NCBI RefSeq assembly: GCF_022134585.1
Contig: NZ_JAKNCT010000009.1
Location: 62,001-126,000 of the forward strand
From: Mesosutterella porci
GTDB lineage: Bacteria; Pseudomonadota; Gammaproteobacteria; Burkholderiales; Burkholderiaceae_F
Length of the DNA: 64,000 nucleotides
Reading direction: 5' to 3'
The position numbers and the translations under genes are program-made. The notes beneath the pieces are model-generated. The model worked only from the letters and a program-made list of their open reading frames with translations. It was not told the origin of the DNA and searched no databases. Below are positions 28,508-41,205 of this stretch, piece after piece. Numbering within the stretch: position 1 is the stretch's first letter; each line of letters opens with the position of its first letter.

Positions 28508-30370
28508 TCAGGCTGGGCTGTTCTGATAGAGCCGCTCGATCTCACCGAGGAAGCGGCTAACGATCTGCTGGCGGCGCAGCTTCATCGTGGAGGTGGTGAG
28601 GCCGTTCTCCGGAGTCCAGTGCTCGGAAAGCAGCATCACCGCGCGCGGCACCCCGTACTGCGGGAAATGTTTCGTACGGGCCCGGATGCGCAGGATCGCC
28701 GCGCGCCTCGCCTTCGGGTGCCTGAGCGTCGCGGGGTCGGCCGGATCAAGTCCGAGACCGCGGCAGAACATCGCCCACTGCTCGGGGTTGACCACGACGA
28801 GGGCCGAGATGAAGGGGCGGCCTTCGCCTACCACGAGGACCTGCTCGAAGAGGGGATCGCCCTGGATCGCATACTCGAGGTCGACCGGCGGGATTTTCTC
28901 GCCCGTCGAGGTGACGATGATCTCCTTGATGCGGCCCTTGATGCGGATGCGGCCCCCGTCGGAGAGGTCGGCCTGGTCTCCGGTCTTCAGAAAGCCGTCT
29001 TCGGTGAACGCTCCGCGGGTTGCCTCCGGGCGGTTCCAGTAGCCGTCCATGAGCTGGGCGCCGCGCACGAGCAGCTCGTCGTTTTCGCCCAGCTTGGCTT
29101 CGATCCCGGGCATCGGACGGCCGACGGTGGCGGGGTGGTTCCCAGGGGTTTCGGAGACTGAGATCACGGGCGCGGACTCGGTGAGCCCGTAACCCTGCCG
29201 CAGGTTGATGTCCATCGCGCAGAAGAACTTCGCCACCGAGTAGTTGAGCGCGGCCCCGCCGCAGATCAGCTCCCGGATGCGGCCGCCGAATATCGCCCGC
29301 ACGCGGCCGGCCACCTTTTCGTCGAGCTGCGGCCACACCGCCTCGTCGAGCTCTTCGCGGGCCGTGTGCTCGACGGGCAGGTCGTTGATGCGGCAGAAGC
29401 GCCTCCAGCCGGCCTCCTGCGCCCAGGCGAGCGTCTTGAGAGCTTCCTCGCCCCCTGCGGAGGCGTCGTTGAAGAATTTCGTGTGGATTTTCTCAAGCAC
29501 CCGCGGCACGGTGTTCATGTGCGTGGGGCGGGTGTGCTGCATGTCCTCGAGCAGCGTGCCCACCGAGCGCGCGATCGCAAGACACGCGCCGTTTGCGATC
29601 GAGTAGTAGTAGGCCACGGTCCGCTCGAAGGCGTGCGAGAGCGGAAGATAGGAGAAATAGGTGTCCTTCGAGCTGAGCGGGAAGACGTGCGACATTTGCT
29701 CGAGGTTCGCGATGATCGCGCGGTGCGAGAGCATGACGCCCTTGGGCCGCCCGGTGGTCCCGGAGGTGTAGACCAGCGCGGCGAGGTCCTGGGGGCCCGG
29801 CCGGTTCTCGGGCCGCAGCGCGGCCGACTCGCCCGCGGCGAGGAAGTCCTCGAGCGAAACGACTCGCTCGGGGTACGGCGCGTCCTTTTCGCTGGGAGAG
29901 TCCGAGATCAGCACGACCGTTTCGAGCGCGTCGAGCCCGTGCTCCGGGGCGGCGTCGCGGATCGCGTGCCAGCGCGCCTCTGAGGCCGACATCAGGGCCC
30001 GCGCGCCGCTGTCCTGCAGCACGAAGGCGCAGGCTGCCGGCGTGTCGATCGCGTGCATGGGCACGGGCACGAGGCCGCTTGCGAGCAGCGCCTGGTCTGT
30101 GAGGATCGCCTCAGGCCCGTTCGTGAGGAGCACCGCGACGCGGTCCCCGCGCTGCAGCCCGAGGGCGGAGAAGGCTTTCTGCCAGCGCCGTACGAGGCCG
30201 AGCGATTCTTTCCAGGAGATCCTGCGCCAGCTCTCGGAGCGGCGGTCGAACCACTCGTAGGCCCGGCCGTCAGGCCAGAGCCGGGCGGCTCGCTCGAGCA
30301 GATCGGGCAGCACCCGGCAGCCCTCTGGGTACTCCACAGGCCTCATATCCAAACGGTTGCTGTATGTCAT
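28508..30370 (-). CDS. Long-chain acyl-CoA synthetase (AMP-forming), copy 1
   Basis: 620-aa AMP-binding enzyme of the bacterial FadD15-like long-chain group. P-loop-like motif LVYTSGTTGRPKGVMLSH, adenine motif QGYGLTESAPVIS, hinge/Asp motif FLKTGDQADLSDGGRIRIKGRIKEIIV and the C-terminal catalytic Lys region EKIPPVDLEYAIQ. It activates free fatty acids with CoA. Tandem paralog of the next gene upstream, 2 nt apart. Confidence 0.93.
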   Translation of the reverse strand: MTYSNRLDMRPVEYPEGCRVLPDLLERAARLWPDGRAYEWFDRRSESWRRISWKESLGLVRRWQKAFSALGLQRGDRVAVLLTNGPEAILTDQALLASGLVPVPMHAIDTPAACAFVLQDSGARALMSASEARWHAIRDAAPEHGLDALETVVLISDSPSEKDAPYPERVVSLEDFLAAGESAALRPENRPGPQDLAALVYTSGTTGRPKGVMLSHRAIIANLEQMSHVFPLSSKDTYFSYLPLSHAFERTVAYYYSIANGACLAIARSVGTLLEDMQHTRPTHMNTVPRVLEKIHTKFFNDASAGGEEALKTLAWAQEAGWRRFCRINDLPVEHTAREELDEAVWPQLDEKVAGRVRAIFGGRIRELICGGAALNYSVAKFFCAMDINLRQGYGLTESAPVISVSETPGNHPATVGRPMPGIEAKLGENDELLVRGAQLMDGYWNRPEATRGAFTEDGFLKTGDQADLSDGGRIRIKGRIKEIIVTSTGEKIPPVDLEYAIQGDPLFEQVLVVGEGRPFISALVVVNPEQWAMFCRGLGLDPADPATLRHPKARRAAILRIRARTKHFPQYGVPRAVMLLSEHWTPENGLTTSTMKLRRQQIVSRFLGEIERLYQNSPA

Positions 30371-30372
30371 GT

Positions 30373-32223
30373 TTACTCGCGGGAGCCGTAAAGCTCTTCA
30401 ATGTCCTTGTTGAGGCGCTGCAGGATCACGCGGCGCTTGAGCTTGAGCGTGGGGGTGAGCGCCCCGTTGTCGATCGTCCAGGGCGACAGGGTGAGAAGCA
30501 CGTCGCGCGGGATGCCGTAGTTCGGAAAGCTGCGGGTGGCGGCCTTCACCAGGTGCACGACCGCCTGCCGCACGGGCCGGGCCCGGAGCGAGGCGGGATC
30601 CGCGGGGTCGACGCCGAGCTTCGCGCAGAGCGCCTCCCAGGCCTGCTTGTTGGGCACGATGATGGCTGCAATGTAGGGGCGGTTGTCGCCGATCACCATC
30701 ACCTGGTCGACGAAGGAGTCGACTTCGATCGCCTGCTCGAGATCAGCGGGCGGGACCTTCTCGCCTGTCGAGGTGACGATGATCTCCTTGATGCGGCCCT
30801 TGATGCTGATCTGCCCGTCTTCGTAGATTTCCGCGACGTCGCCCGTGTGCAGCCAGCCCTCGGAGTCTTTCGCTTCGTCGGTGGCCTTCGGGTTGTGCCA
30901 GTAGCCCTTCATCACCGAGGGGCCGCGCACGAGAAGCTCGTCATCCTCGCCCAGCTTCACCTCGAGGTTCGGCAGGGCCGGACCCACCGTGGTCGGGTGG
31001 ATTGCGCCTTTTTTGTGCACCGAGATGATCGGAGAGGCCTCGGTCATGCCGTAGCCCTGGACGATGGTGACGCCGAGGCCCAGCAGGCACCGCGCGACAA
31101 CCGGGTTGAGCGCGGCGCCGCCGGACACGAAGACGTTAATGTGGCTGTGCTCGCCGAAGGCCGAGCGCACCTTGGCGCCGACGAGCCGGTCGAGAGGGCC
31201 GGCCACGATCGGGTCGAGGAACGAGAGCCGGCCGGGCGCGGCCGGCAGCCCGTTTTCGCGGCAGAAGCGCCGCCAGCCCACGTCTACGGCCCAGTTGAAG
31301 AGCGCCTGCGCAAACTTGGGCTGTCGGCGCACCTCCTGCATGATCTTCGCGTAGATCTGCTCGTAGACTCGCGGGACCGCCATCATCACGTTGGGCGCCG
31401 CGTACTTGAGATCCTTGGCGAGGGTGGCGATCGAGCGGTAGAAGATGATCGGGTTGCCCATGCCCATGCCCACGTAGTAGGTCGTCGTGCGTTCGAAGGT
31501 GTGCGACAGGGGCAGGAACGAGAACCAGCGGTCGGTAGGCTCGGGCTGCAGGTGCTTGAGCACGGCCCGCACGTTGCTCAGGATGTTGCGGTGGGTGAGC
31601 ATCACGCCCTTGGGGCGCCCGGTGGTGCCGGAGGTGTAGACGATCGCCCCGAGGTCTGTGTCCTTCGGGCCGGGGGGCAGCGGCGTGCCGCGCCCGCGCT
31701 CCAGGAAGGTCTCGAGCGTGATGACCTCGATGCGGTCGGCGGGGTCGCTGGGGACCTCGTCGTCGGTGATCACGACAAGCTTCAGATCGGGCAGCTCCAC
31801 ACCGCAGTCGCGGATGCCCTTCCACTTCAGATATTTGTTCGTGACAAGAACGCGGCTGCCGGAGTCCTGCAGGATGTAGGCCGAGGAGCCCGGGGTGTCT
31901 ATGGCATGCAACGGCACCGGCACGAAGGCATCGGAGAGCACGCCCTGGTCGAAGCAGATCGCGTCCACGCAGTTCGGCATCAGCATCGCGCAGCGGTCGC
32001 CGCGCTCGAGCCCCGCCGCGGCGAAGGCCTCGCGCCAGCGCTGCACCCGTTCGTTCATTTGCTCGTAGTTGAGGCTCACCCAGCGCTTTTCGCGGTTGCT
32101 GTACTCCCTGAATGCTTCGAGACGGGCGTGGCAGGGGATGTGCTGCGTGAGCAGCTCGGGGAGCGTCTGCACCAGTTCTAGGCTTCTCAGGCGCGCTTCG
32201 ATAGTGTCAGATGGCTGGTCCAA
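30373..32223 (-). CDS. Long-chain acyl-CoA synthetase (AMP-forming), copy 2
   Basis: 616 aa; TTG start with AAGGA 8 nt upstream. Same architecture as its neighbour: IVYTSGTTGRPKGVMLTH, VQGYGMTEASPIISV, WLHTGDVAEIYEDGQISIKGRIKEIIV, EKVPPADLEQAIE. First gene of a four-gene operon. Tandem duplication followed by divergence is evident from the shared motif spacing; different chain-length preferences are possible. Confidence 0.93.
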   Translation of the reverse strand: MDQPSDTIEARLRSLELVQTLPELLTQHIPCHARLEAFREYSNREKRWVSLNYEQMNERVQRWREAFAAAGLERGDRCAMLMPNCVDAICFDQGVLSDAFVPVPLHAIDTPGSSAYILQDSGSRVLVTNKYLKWKGIRDCGVELPDLKLVVITDDEVPSDPADRIEVITLETFLERGRGTPLPPGPKDTDLGAIVYTSGTTGRPKGVMLTHRNILSNVRAVLKHLQPEPTDRWFSFLPLSHTFERTTTYYVGMGMGNPIIFYRSIATLAKDLKYAAPNVMMAVPRVYEQIYAKIMQEVRRQPKFAQALFNWAVDVGWRRFCRENGLPAAPGRLSFLDPIVAGPLDRLVGAKVRSAFGEHSHINVFVSGGAALNPVVARCLLGLGVTIVQGYGMTEASPIISVHKKGAIHPTTVGPALPNLEVKLGEDDELLVRGPSVMKGYWHNPKATDEAKDSEGWLHTGDVAEIYEDGQISIKGRIKEIIVTSTGEKVPPADLEQAIEVDSFVDQVMVIGDNRPYIAAIIVPNKQAWEALCAKLGVDPADPASLRARPVRQAVVHLVKAATRSFPNYGIPRDVLLTLSPWTIDNGALTPTLKLKRRVILQRLNKDIEELYGSRE

Positions 32224-32379: not shown

Positions 32380-32415
32380 AAAAAAAAACGGCCCAAGTCT
32401 GAAAAGACTTGAGCC
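32380..32415 (-). terminator. Rho-independent terminator upstream of the acyl-CoA synthetase operon
   Basis: Minus-strand stem CAAGTCT-tttc-AGACTTG extended by GGC/GCC pairing and followed by nine T. It lies about 160 nt before the first gene of the operon, so it either ends a small RNA or acts as an attenuator. Confidence 0.8.
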
Positions 32416-32530
32416 TGCAAAAGCATGATCACTTTTGTCTGGCGGAACCGCCAGCCCCTCGAAAGGGATCACGCAGGGAGAAACTCTCAACTGGCCGGCA
32501 CTGGAGGTGTTACCGCACTCCTTGCCGGAC
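32390..32530 (-). ncRNA. Candidate structured RNA or terminating leader
   Basis: In minus-strand order: stem CCGGCA...TGCCGG enclosing GGAG...CTCC (32495-32528), a CCCT/AGGG hairpin with CGAA loop (32456-32467, named on the plus strand), a TGGCG/CGCCA hairpin (32440-32453), a CAAAAG/CTTTTG hairpin (32418-32437) and the terminator. I compared it by eye with glycine, cobalamin, TPP, 6S and tmRNA patterns without a convincing match. It could be a small RNA or a riboswitch-like leader. Confidence 0.4.
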
Positions 32531-32564
32531 GCCTGAAAGTTTAGCCTTGCCTAGATAAAATCAA

Positions 32565-32626
32565 ATAGGTAAAAACACCTATATTTCATTCATTACGCCG
32601 CGGGCTCCCGAGAGTGTAGGTGTTTT
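32565..32626. repeat. Inverted TAGGTGTTTT repeats upstream of the candidate RNA
   Basis: AAAACACCTA (32572-32581) is the complement of TAGGTGTTTT at 32617-32626, and ATAGGT/ACCTAT (32565-32582) forms a palindrome over the first copy. Their position is upstream of the minus-strand RNA/fadD operon. Confidence 0.4.
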
Positions 32627-32892: not shown

Positions 32893-34920
32893 ATGGAACA
32901 GGTTCAGGAGCCTCTTCACATCATCAAACGCGACGGAAGCATCCGGAGCTTCGACCCGGACAAGATCGTGATCGCGATCACGAAGGCCGGCAAGGCGACC
33001 GGGGAAATCGGCCCCGAGCAGGCCCGGGAGCTCACCGTGCGCGAGGTGATGCCGAGGATCCGTGCCCTGAAGACCCTCACGCCCGACATCGAGCGAGTGC
33101 AGGACGCCGTCGAGAAGTCGATTTTCGCGGCCGGGTATTTCGACACGCTGCGCGCCTACATCGTCTACCGCGAGCAGCATGCGAAGAGCCGCAACGCAAA
33201 GCACTCCTGGGTGGATGTGGAAAGCTCCATCAATGAGTACCTGAATCATCTTGACTGGCGCGTCAACGCCAATGCGAACCAGGGCTACTCGCTGGGCGGC
33301 CTGATCCTCAACGTCTCGGGCAAGGTGATCGCCAACTACTGGCTCAACGCCGTCTATCCCCCGGAGGTGGGCCTCGCGCACCGCAACGGCGACATCCACA
33401 TCCACGACCTCGACATGCTCTCGGGCTACTGCGCGGGATGGTCCCTGCGCACGCTGCTGCAGGAGGGTCTGAACGGCGTGCCCGGCAAGGTCGAGGCGGG
33501 AGCTCCGAAGCACATCTCGTCGGCCACCGGGCAGATCGTGAATTTCCTGGGCACCATGCAGAACGAGTGGGCGGGTGCGCAGGCGTTCTCCTCCTTCGAC
33601 ACGTATCTCGCCCCGTACGTCCGCAAGGACCACGTTTCCTACGAGGAGCTGCTGCAGTCGATCCAGGAGCTCATCTACAACCTGAACGTTCCCTCGCGCT
33701 GGGGCACGCAGACCCCGTTCACCAACCTCACCTTCGACTGGGTCTGCCCGGAGGACCTGCGCGGCCAGCACCCGGTGATCGCGGGCGAGGTCCAGCCCTT
33801 TACCTACGGCGAGCTCAAGCCCGAGATGGACATGATCAACCGCGCCTACATCGAGGTCATGATGAAGGGCGACGCCAAGGGGCGCGTCTTCACCTTCCCG
33901 ATCCCGACCTACAACATCACGAAGGACTTCGACTGGGACAGCCCGAACACGCTGCTGCTGTTCAAGATGACGGCCAAGTACGGTCTGCCTTATTTCCAGA
34001 ATTTCATCAACTCCGACCTGAAGCCCAACATGATCCGCTCGATGTGCTGCCGCCTGCAGCTCGACCTGCGCGAGCTGCTCAAGCGCGGCAACGGTCTGTT
34101 CGGCTCGGCCGAGCAGACCGGATCTGTGGGCGTGGTGACGATCAACACGGCCCGTCTCGGCTATCTCTTCAAGAACGACCGCGAGGGCCTCTATCGGCGG
34201 CTTGACCATCTGCTCGAGCTCGCCCGCGACTCGCTCGAAATCAAGCGCAAGGTGATCCAGCGTCACATTGACGCCGGGCTCTTCCCGTATACGAAGCGCT
34301 ACCTCGGCACGCTCCGCAACCACTTCTCGACGATCGGCGTGAACGGCATGAACGAAATGATCCGCAACTTCACGGACGATCAGCACGACATCACCGATGA
34401 CTGGGGACATCAGTTCGCGCTCGACTTTCTGGACCACGTGCGCGAGCGCATGGTGGAGTTCCAGACTGAAACCGGCCACCTTTACAACCTTGAGGCGACG
34501 CCGGCTGAGGGCACGACCTACCGCTTCGCCAAGGAGGACCGCAAGCGCTTCCCCGACATCCTGCAGGCCGGCACTCCGGACCACCCGTACTACACGAACA
34601 GCTCCCAGCTGCCGGCGGGCTTCACCGACGATCCCTTCCTCGCCCTCGAGATGCAGGACGACCTGCAAAAGAAGTACACGGGCGGCACCGTGCTCCACCT
34701 CTACATGAACGAGGCGGTTTCCTCGGCCGAGGCCTGCCGCGACCTCGTGCGCAGGGTGCTCACGAACTTCCGCCTGCCTTACATCACCGTGACGCCCACG
34801 TTCTCGATCTGCCCGAAGCACGGTTATATCTCGGGGCGGCACGACTACTGCCCGATCTGCGACGCGGAGCTGCTGGCAAAGAAGAAGGCTCGCGCGGCAG
34901 AGGCGGCCGGAGCCGACTGA
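32893..34920 (+). CDS. nrdD: Anaerobic (class III) ribonucleoside-triphosphate reductase NrdD; glycyl-radical motif not found
   Basis: 675 aa; ATG with AAGGAG upstream. N-terminal ATP-cone (IIKRDGSIRSFDPDKIVIAI; about residues 8-100), then the NRDD barrel: HRNGDIHIHDLDMLSGYCAGW (Cys180), NVPSRWGTQTPFTNLTFDW and RSMCCRLQLDLRELL (Cys385, Cys386). The C-terminal zinc site is partly visible as CPKH (Cys640, His643) and CPIC (Cys653, Cys656). The protein stops 19 residues later in a Lys/Ala tail (LLAKKKARAAEAAGAD). The RVxGY glycyl-radical motif expected after the zinc site is absent, in this and the other two frames. It is paired with nrdG and has NrdR boxes, so it belongs to the class III family, but catalysis by the usual mechanism is questionable. 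Confidence 0.9.
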   Translation: MEQVQEPLHIIKRDGSIRSFDPDKIVIAITKAGKATGEIGPEQARELTVREVMPRIRALKTLTPDIERVQDAVEKSIFAAGYFDTLRAYIVYREQHAKSRNAKHSWVDVESSINEYLNHLDWRVNANANQGYSLGGLILNVSGKVIANYWLNAVYPPEVGLAHRNGDIHIHDLDMLSGYCAGWSLRTLLQEGLNGVPGKVEAGAPKHISSATGQIVNFLGTMQNEWAGAQAFSSFDTYLAPYVRKDHVSYEELLQSIQELIYNLNVPSRWGTQTPFTNLTFDWVCPEDLRGQHPVIAGEVQPFTYGELKPEMDMINRAYIEVMMKGDAKGRVFTFPIPTYNITKDFDWDSPNTLLLFKMTAKYGLPYFQNFINSDLKPNMIRSMCCRLQLDLRELLKRGNGLFGSAEQTGSVGVVTINTARLGYLFKNDREGLYRRLDHLLELARDSLEIKRKVIQRHIDAGLFPYTKRYLGTLRNHFSTIGVNGMNEMIRNFTDDQHDITDDWGHQFALDFLDHVRERMVEFQTETGHLYNLEATPAEGTTYRFAKEDRKRFPDILQAGTPDHPYYTNSSQLPAGFTDDPFLALEMQDDLQKKYTGGTVLHLYMNEAVSSAEACRDLVRRVLTNFRLPYITVTPTFSICPKHGYISGRHDYCPICDAELLAKKKARAAEAAGAD

Positions 34921-40535: not shown

Positions 40536-41205
40536 GTGCGCCCAGCAGCGCACGTGTGACCAGTGGTGAAAGTCCACCGTCCGCCCGATCGAGGGAAGGA
40601 CTAGCGACTCGGCAGAGTCAGGGAGGTAACAAACTGATGAAGAAAGCCGACAGCAAAACGTCAGCCTGACGAACAGGAACTGGATATGAGGCGGCGACTC
40701 CGGGAGAGCAGGCCACATTCTGTTAACCCCATATCGATACGGAAGGAGCCGTCGTAGATCCAGCAGGCAGGACGCAAAGCGCACGTGTGAGACCTGGGGA
40801 GATCCTTGACGATGCCGCAGGGCTGCCGCGGTCGAGAGGCCAAGGCATATAGACAAGGAAGTCAGCAGAGGCCGTAGTAGGCGGAAGCGCCGAAGGGCCG
40901 AATTTGAACTTGTAAGTAGAGCGTACAGCTCTCCCGAACCCGGCGACAGCAGCTGTAAAAGTCGAACGATAGGAAGTAGATCGCCTCCGGCGGCAATGGA
41001 CGGAATTCGAAAGCCCTCCACATGCGGCAAGCGTTCGACAACAGCTTCTTCAAGCGGATGGGGCTTTTCAGCGCCCTCGAGATGCAGTAAGCCCGCCTCT
41101 TACGTTTGAAAACCGAAAACCGCCGGATGCCGAACGGCATGTCCGCAGCCCTCACTGGGACAGCGGTGTAGGAGGGAGTGACCGTGAGGTCACTCTCTAC
41201 CCGAT
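40536..41205 (+). mobile_element. Degenerate group IIC intron, about 670 nt, reverse-transcriptase gene mostly deleted
   Basis: 5' end GTGCGCCCAGC followed by GTGGTGAAAGTCCAC, the usual intron start. The domain III-like block GAAGTCAGCAGAGGCCGTAG and domain V ACCGCCGGATGCCGAACGG..CATGTCCG closely follow the group IIC pattern, with a CGC triad at 41121-41123. Domain VI is the long hairpin GGGAGTGACC-gtga-GGTCACTC, and the 3' end is CTACCCGAT. Insertion right after a terminator is the known habit of class C introns. The protein gene is reduced to its last codons. Domain V is interrupted by about 17 extra bases after 41145. Confidence 0.85.
40980..41090 (+). pseudogene. Remnant of the intron-encoded reverse transcriptase/maturase (C-terminal tail)
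   Basis: In-frame stretch ending at TAA 41088-41090 and reading ...NSKALHMRQAFDNSFFKRMGL..., which resembles the conserved C-terminal end of group II intron proteins. An in-frame stop just upstream (40977-40979) and the absence of any RT motif show that the rest is gone. Confidence 0.55.

Follow-up and report, generated by a model that had tools for sequence, protein, structure and literature searches.

AbcR1 and AbcR2, the trans-acting alpha-r15 RNAs of Rhizobiales, carry the anti-Shine-Dalgarno motif UUCCCCUC in the linker between stem-loops SL1 and SL2, and CUCCUCCC in a loop, and they repress transporter mRNAs, many of which encode ABC solute-binding proteins, as described in the part of the source consulted (PMC8844928). 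In the excerpts consulted of a second source (PMC9973317), NgncR_162/163 of Neisseria act via SL2 and the single-stranded region between SL1 and SL2 on targets in amino-acid uptake and metabolism, a D-methionine ABC solute-binding protein being among the genes changed, and in Enterobacteria a single RNA, GcvB, controls many periplasmic amino-acid-binding ABC components.

We analysed 64,000 nucleotides of Mesosutterella porci DNA (hereafter, the window), which hold a small RNA that is real, previously uncatalogued and found in gut bacteria related to Sutterella. As far as the excerpted description of AbcR1/2 goes, those RNAs and this one have in common an anti-Shine-Dalgarno motif placed in the stretch that joins stem-loops 1 and 2. 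Unlike AbcR1/2, however, this RNA combines one linker motif, UUUCUCCCU, with an invariant GAGGGG loop in a long P2-P4 arm, has no Rfam match, belongs to another class of bacteria, and has targets that are predicted only. NgncR_162/163, compared here by description only and from excerpts, form a sibling pair, whereas this RNA is present as a single copy in its own genome. GcvB reportedly targets C/A-rich elements, whereas predicted pairing with Shine-Dalgarno sequences through a CU linker, and no match in Rfam, characterize the present RNA. We would place it in a family that is new but belongs to a known kind of RNA; its layout resembles that of AbcR and NgncR, to which any kinship would be putative.

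Locus and known-family searches

The small RNA gene lies between the divergently oriented nrdD on its 5′ side and a ligase gene on its 3′ side (Table 1). Judged from sequence, minus is the right strand for it, because the terminator reads in the minus direction. The 5′ start is about 12–14 nt upstream of 32530, where the sequence-only reading had ended the element, and the 5′ hairpin begins at 32542. The adjoining ligase is one of a tandem pair of long-chain acyl-CoA synthetase-like ligases (window 28508-32223, minus strand; 620 and 616 aa).

Table 1 Features of the small RNA locus, in window coordinates
Feature	Position	Strand	Remarks
Small RNA gene	32544-32380	minus	~160 nt; from fold and homologues; 5′ end deduced from sequence
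P1, 5′ hairpin (AAACUUUCAG...UUGAGAGUUU)	32481-32542	minus	Minimum free energy (MFE) fold
CU-rich linker UUUCUCCCU	32475-32483	minus	Anti-Shine-Dalgarno in wording; partly paired in P1
P2, 5′ strand GCGUGAUC	32467-32474	minus	Partner is 32423-32430
Internal loop CGAGGGG	32455-32461	minus	Predicted unpaired; invariant, identical in 7/7 homologues
P4 hairpin (CUGGCGGUUCCGCCAG in the window)	32439-32454	minus	MFE fold
P2, 3′ strand GAUCAUGC	32423-32430	minus	8/8 positions variable, 40/40 cells paired, 5 distinct sequences
Intrinsic terminator	32380-32415	minus	11-bp stem GTTTTTTTTT and 9 U
Palindromic operator-like site TAGGTGTTTTTACCTA	32566-32581	minus	Upstream of the RNA; 0 mismatches
Inverted half-like copy TAGGTGTTTTCACTAA	32617-32632	plus	3 mismatches; ~50 bp from the TAGGTGTTTTTACCTA site
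nrdD	32893-34920	plus	Divergent 5′ neighbour of the RNA; NF006126 (1130 bits), TIGR02487
Long-chain acyl-CoA synthetase-like AMP ligase	30373-32223	minus	3′ neighbour, outside the RNA element

Searched against Rfam 15, the whole window returned two group II intron domains only, with no match at the RNA, and the 701 bases at the locus, scanned with E up to 10, returned no family at gathering score. The best permissive match at the locus was ncS025, a Burkholderia sRNA (RF02869; 19.5 bits vs a gathering score of 46, E = 0.57); it lies over the P4-terminator part, so that the likeness rests on one hairpin plus a terminator and is far below the gathering score. The homologues described below likewise gave nothing at cut-off (best 18.6 bits vs 37). 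Rfam includes an AbcR/alpha-r15 family, and that family was not among the matches listed in the scans of the whole window or of the 701 bases at the locus. In open-licence literature on small or structured RNAs of Sutterella, and on nrdD-linked sRNAs in Betaproteobacteria, there was no description of this RNA among the matches listed, nor, judged by their listing, any paper on small RNAs of Sutterella and its relatives. The sequence-only reading had considered the RNA unassigned, as by eye it resembled none of the classes familiar to that reader, and the Rfam scan, with no family at gathering score, agrees; the match to a known Rfam family that was to count against that reading did not turn up. 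The group II intron, a few kb from the RNA, is represented by D1-D4 domain matches (RF02001, 99 bits; RF01998, 49 bits; 40620-40898, plus strand).

In the window as a whole, TAGGTGTTTTTACCTA-type sites are overrepresented: three with up to 3 mismatches occur vs 0.12 expected, and none of 100 shuffles reached three. A similar palindrome precedes the RNA in G001 and G004 (TAGGTGTTTTTGCCTA), and a shorter one in L003 (TAGGTGTTACCT). The conserved palindrome suggests a regulated promoter for the RNA.

Homologues, fold and covariation

DNA similarity search recovered the RNA in 4 of the 5 genomes of the genus (G000 to G004); the match in G002 and G003 was a core of 37 nt. We built covariance models of the core (A2 and R1) and of five sequences (R2); R1 added G004 (E = 2.9e-4), so the RNA is present in all five, at the same syntenic place. 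Neither R1 (best E = 0.055) nor R2 (best E = 0.13) turned up anything convincing in the family's 62 other genomes, a weak negative because both models also scored poorly on homologues that we recognised in other ways. These emerged from the regions upstream of nrdD in four other Sutterella-type loci (L002, L003, L004, and L011), read after a search with filters off. The RNA lies divergently upstream of nrdD in L004 (uncultured Sutterella; model score 13.6 bits, E = 0.09) and in L003 (Sutterella massiliensis), where the model missed the true site; no homologue was recognised upstream of nrdD in L002 and L011. The motif CGAGGGGCTG occurs 11 times in 607,118 bases of 80 nrdD loci, and just two of these are minus-strand copies located no more than 700 nt upstream of nrdD, exactly those of L003 and L004 (chance expectation 0.006 per locus, or ~0.5 over all 80). 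A descriptor search of the 80 nrdD loci and the window found CGAGGGG flanked by some helix at 34 places, and therefore presence of a helix alone is not rare. The L003 and L004 sites are credible as homologues through loop, place, P4 and terminator in combination. The unconstrained MFE fold of L003 has the same architecture (z = -4.97), as does that of L004 without its longer 5′ part (z = -2.3); with the 5′ part, L004 has a different minimum-energy fold (z = -2.0).

Several further matches were set aside. Those of the first model in G052 (E = 0.055), in G034 and G007 (E = 0.19), and weaker ones, have a core broken in the alignment and look chance-like. BLAST matches in L085 and L086 (E = 0.008-0.009) are short and have no surrounding structure, and a site in L005 with CGAGGGG and an 8-bp helix reads CGAGGGGCTC, shows no P4 by eye and was taken as chance. 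Searches of phages, plasmids, and viral contigs for the RNA gave no match.

The stability of the whole-element fold is above chance. The stretch as given (plus strand) folds with z = -4.76, and none of 200 shuffles was equally stable; 186 nt of the minus strand gave z = -4.02, the full-length 164-nt RNA on that strand z = -4.34, and the five genus members z = -3.5 to -4.5, with at most 1 of 200 shuffles equally stable. The best-supported predicted fold has three domains: the P1 hairpin, the P2 stem around P4, and the terminator. The long arm (32474-32423) would comprise P2, an inner 4-bp stem, the internal loop CGAGGGG, and the apical hairpin P4. Where the sequence-only reading had counted five hairpins in ~140 nt, the structured nature of the stretch thus holds up (z = -4.76), but three domains take the place of five independent hairpins.

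Lineages have their own sequences for P1, P4 and the terminator, but hairpins form at the same places. A hairpin of different sequence occupies the P1 position in G002-G004 and L003, and in G002-G004, L003, and L004 P4 is paired, longer, and different in sequence from that of the window. The terminator hairpin runs from 32415 to 32390 and the U tract from 32388 to 32380. Terminator-like sites alone are not above chance (1 found in a 2-kb stretch vs 1.9 expected in shuffles), whereas conservation of the terminator is: a U-A pair of the stem is exchanged for C-G, a compensatory change, between G000 and G001, other terminator sequences stand at the same place in G002-G004, L003, and L004, and all seven homologues have a full terminator. 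The intrinsic terminator that the sequence-only reading had proposed is thus confirmed, on the minus strand and conserved in place, and so is its distance of ~160 nt from the first same-strand coding region, the ligase start codon being a TTG at 32223, ~157 nt beyond the terminator end.

P2 covaries. Within the genus, two of its pairs are changed on both sides and one on a single side, yet all 40 cells are paired (40/40), and pairing falls to 27-50% when the partner is shifted by 1-3 columns. Only 6 of 500 shuffles reached both the observed pairing and the covariation score, although the pair-count and type-count measures did not stand out in this control, there being too few sequences. With L003 and L004 added, all 8 positions have 2-3 pair types (40/40 cells, five distinct sequences); these two were placed by hand in a stem-guided alignment, which is biased towards P2 pairing. 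P2 therefore covaries across seven species, and the lack of covariation among relatives named beforehand as counter-evidence was not what the check found.

A small-protein gene or leader peptide is extremely unlikely. Open frames do occur: the 5′ part of L004 (2488-2700, minus strand) has AGGGAGAA-N6-ATG followed by a 31-codon frame through the core, and G002 and G003 have an open frame of 103-107 codons from stop to stop. However, the L004 frame is not common to the others, the frame in G000 and G001 runs through the terminator, substitutions track base pairing, and CGAGGGG shows no change at any codon position. The seven homologues have no reading frame, start, or stop in common, and the coding explanation is therefore poor. 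The locus shows instead what is expected of a trans-acting sRNA, being standalone and conserved, with its own terminator, covarying stems, and no reading frame.

A diverged 6S RNA was considered in view of the distribution of RF00013, which was found in 0 of 36 genomes of genera g1, g2, g4, and g16 vs 29 of the 31 genomes from the family's remaining genera (this search used stricter filters; a genus-only search also gave 0/5). Shape and genomic context led us to reject this reading, which is exceedingly improbable: the RNA has no 5′-3′ closing stem and no rod with a central bubble, its terminator is a separate hairpin, RF00013 has no match at its locus, and none of six window proteins is encoded close to the 6S loci examined in five genomes from other genera. 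As an observation on the clade, 6S RNA has possibly been lost or has strongly diverged in Sutterella-like bacteria (g1, g2, g4, and g16).

Neighbouring genes of the RNA

The sequence-only reading had offered a riboswitch or attenuator ahead of the acyl-CoA synthetase operon, for which a ligand related to fatty acids would be new, and alternatively a free small RNA. A cis leader is in keeping with the window, where the ligase is co-directional and begins 157 nt downstream of the RNA, and with L003 and L004, where the next large gene is also a ligase. Among relatives, however, the synthetase is separated from the RNA throughout. An opposite-strand IS transposase-like gene (by eye) intervenes in G001. 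In G002 and G003, the genes next to the RNA on its 3′ side are DUF6110-like and P-type ATPase-like, the ligase start being nearly 4 kb away, and in G004 a module of the same kind lies 3′ of the RNA (its DUF6110-like gene scores 25.8 bits, just below the cut-off of 26). The gap is 1-1.4 kb in the two more distant homologues, the ligase frame being ~1.4 kb (L003) and ~1 kb (L004) from the RNA, with ~1 kb holding no gene. The same gene directly downstream, which a cis leader would call for, was thus not found in G001-G004, L003, or L004; moreover, no alternative antiterminator was seen, and the terminator is full in all. Because the 3′ neighbour differs among relatives and the RNA keeps its own terminator, a riboswitch or attenuator of the synthetase fails and is very unlikely; the fatty-acid-related ligand is not supported, a fatty-acid riboswitch being rejected on synteny.

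At L113-L115 (G002-G004), a DUF6110-like gene of 101 aa and then a P-type ATPase-like gene precede the ligase pair; they are absent there in G000 and G001. The DUF6110-like gene and its ATPase-like neighbour are reminiscent of PacL-type partners. A cis link between the RNA and the DUF6110 gene was rejected, as only in G004, and in neither G002 nor G003, is the Shine-Dalgarno sequence of that gene a perfect match to the linker.

On the other side of the RNA, G004 has no close nrdD in its genome (28% identity at best), and there the RNA borders an NhaC-like antiporter gene, which in the window is beyond nrdDG. Persistence of the RNA with its own terminator despite changing neighbours is the behaviour of a free RNA gene. 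The free small RNA of the sequence-only reading is accordingly the option that stands, given the RNA's own terminator, covariation across seven species, and retention without an adjacent synthetase, and we consider it very probable that this is a standalone small RNA gene, with a putative promoter region of its own, conserved beside nrdD in Sutterella-like bacteria.

Linker, loop, and candidate targets

The linker reads UUUCUCCCUG in all five genus members; by fold probabilities most of it is single-stranded in G002-G004, and in G000 and G001 a part pairs within P1. An anti-Shine-Dalgarno linker is a feature of the genus, absent from L003 and reduced to AUCCCUG in L004, and the CGAGGGG loop is better conserved than the linker seed. 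The modelled shape of the RNA is one that may block ribosome-binding sites of other messages, and we regard an antisense action in trans as probable, with some reserve. Within the genus, the linker that joins P1 to P2 would pair with the Shine-Dalgarno sequence CAGGGAGAAA of target messages, and pairing there would block their translation. The U-rich 3′ end, seen as a long U tract, would serve a putative RNA chaperone such as Hfq. The messages proposed as targets encode a MetQ-like lipoprotein, two family-3 solute-binding proteins, an SDF symporter, and a PII protein.

The pattern CAGGGAGAAAN{2,14}ATG returned 18 rows in 4 of the 5 genus genomes vs 1 for the reversed pattern, a lenient control that any Shine-Dalgarno-like pattern would exceed. 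Five genes of G000 match perfectly, encoding a MetQ-like lipoprotein, a family-3 solute-binding protein, PII, and CapA-like and YjiH-like proteins (the last two named by eye), and one of the genes in G004 again encodes a family-3 solute-binding protein; no solute-binding protein was among the 13 rows with AGGGAGAAA in G002 and G003. A fairer control is AAGGAGAAA, an equally good Shine-Dalgarno sequence mismatched to the linker. Uptake and nitrogen genes made up 6 of 25 target frames vs 2 of 42 control frames (one-sided Fisher test: p = 0.027, with the category set post hoc). The 25 targets are 27 distinct frames after two G000/G001 orthologue pairs were merged by eye, and 43 control frames were found, of which 42 entered the test. 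Coverage was nearly all 49 rows for targets vs only 53 loci of 111 rows for the control; DcuC was counted as uptake though it scores 22.4 vs a Pfam cut-off of 23.1, and some class labels were given by eye. We treat the enrichment as a lead only, and a weak one. Predicted linker duplexes with five candidate leaders range from -16 to -24.5 kcal/mol vs -8.2 for the adjacent ligase, the candidates having been chosen as linker matches and so matching by construction. That the targets form the named class (amino-acid and dicarboxylate uptake, and PII) is doubtful.

A rather unlikely alternative takes the CGAGGGG loop for the business end, as a protein sponge or ligand sensor, with the linker merely closing a pseudoknot with the loop. 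The loop is the one stretch identical in 7/7 homologues while every stem changes, and in L004, as in all five members of the genus, the linker has a UCCCU complementary to AGGGG. The pseudoknot shows no covariation, however, as neither side varies, L003 has no UCCCU, and no known protein motif was recognised; the CsrA-type motif, ANGGA, is absent from the loop. Under antisense action in trans, the loop may hold the seed closed through UCCCU-AGGGG pairing, or may bind a protein. Decidedly improbable is a sensor-gated form of the trans-acting RNA, linked with nrdD as an anaerobic locus, in which a bound protein or ligand would open or close the seed at a CGAGGGG-linker pseudoknot; with it the Sutterella lineage, a clade where 6S RNA goes undetected, would have a functional class of RNA not known before.

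In Sutterella and related gut bacteria there is thus a conserved family of RNAs for which a consensus, well-defined predicted stems, and candidate targets are available. Should the target reading prove correct, it would be another anti-Shine-Dalgarno RNA over amino-acid uptake, beside AbcR, NgncR, and GcvB.
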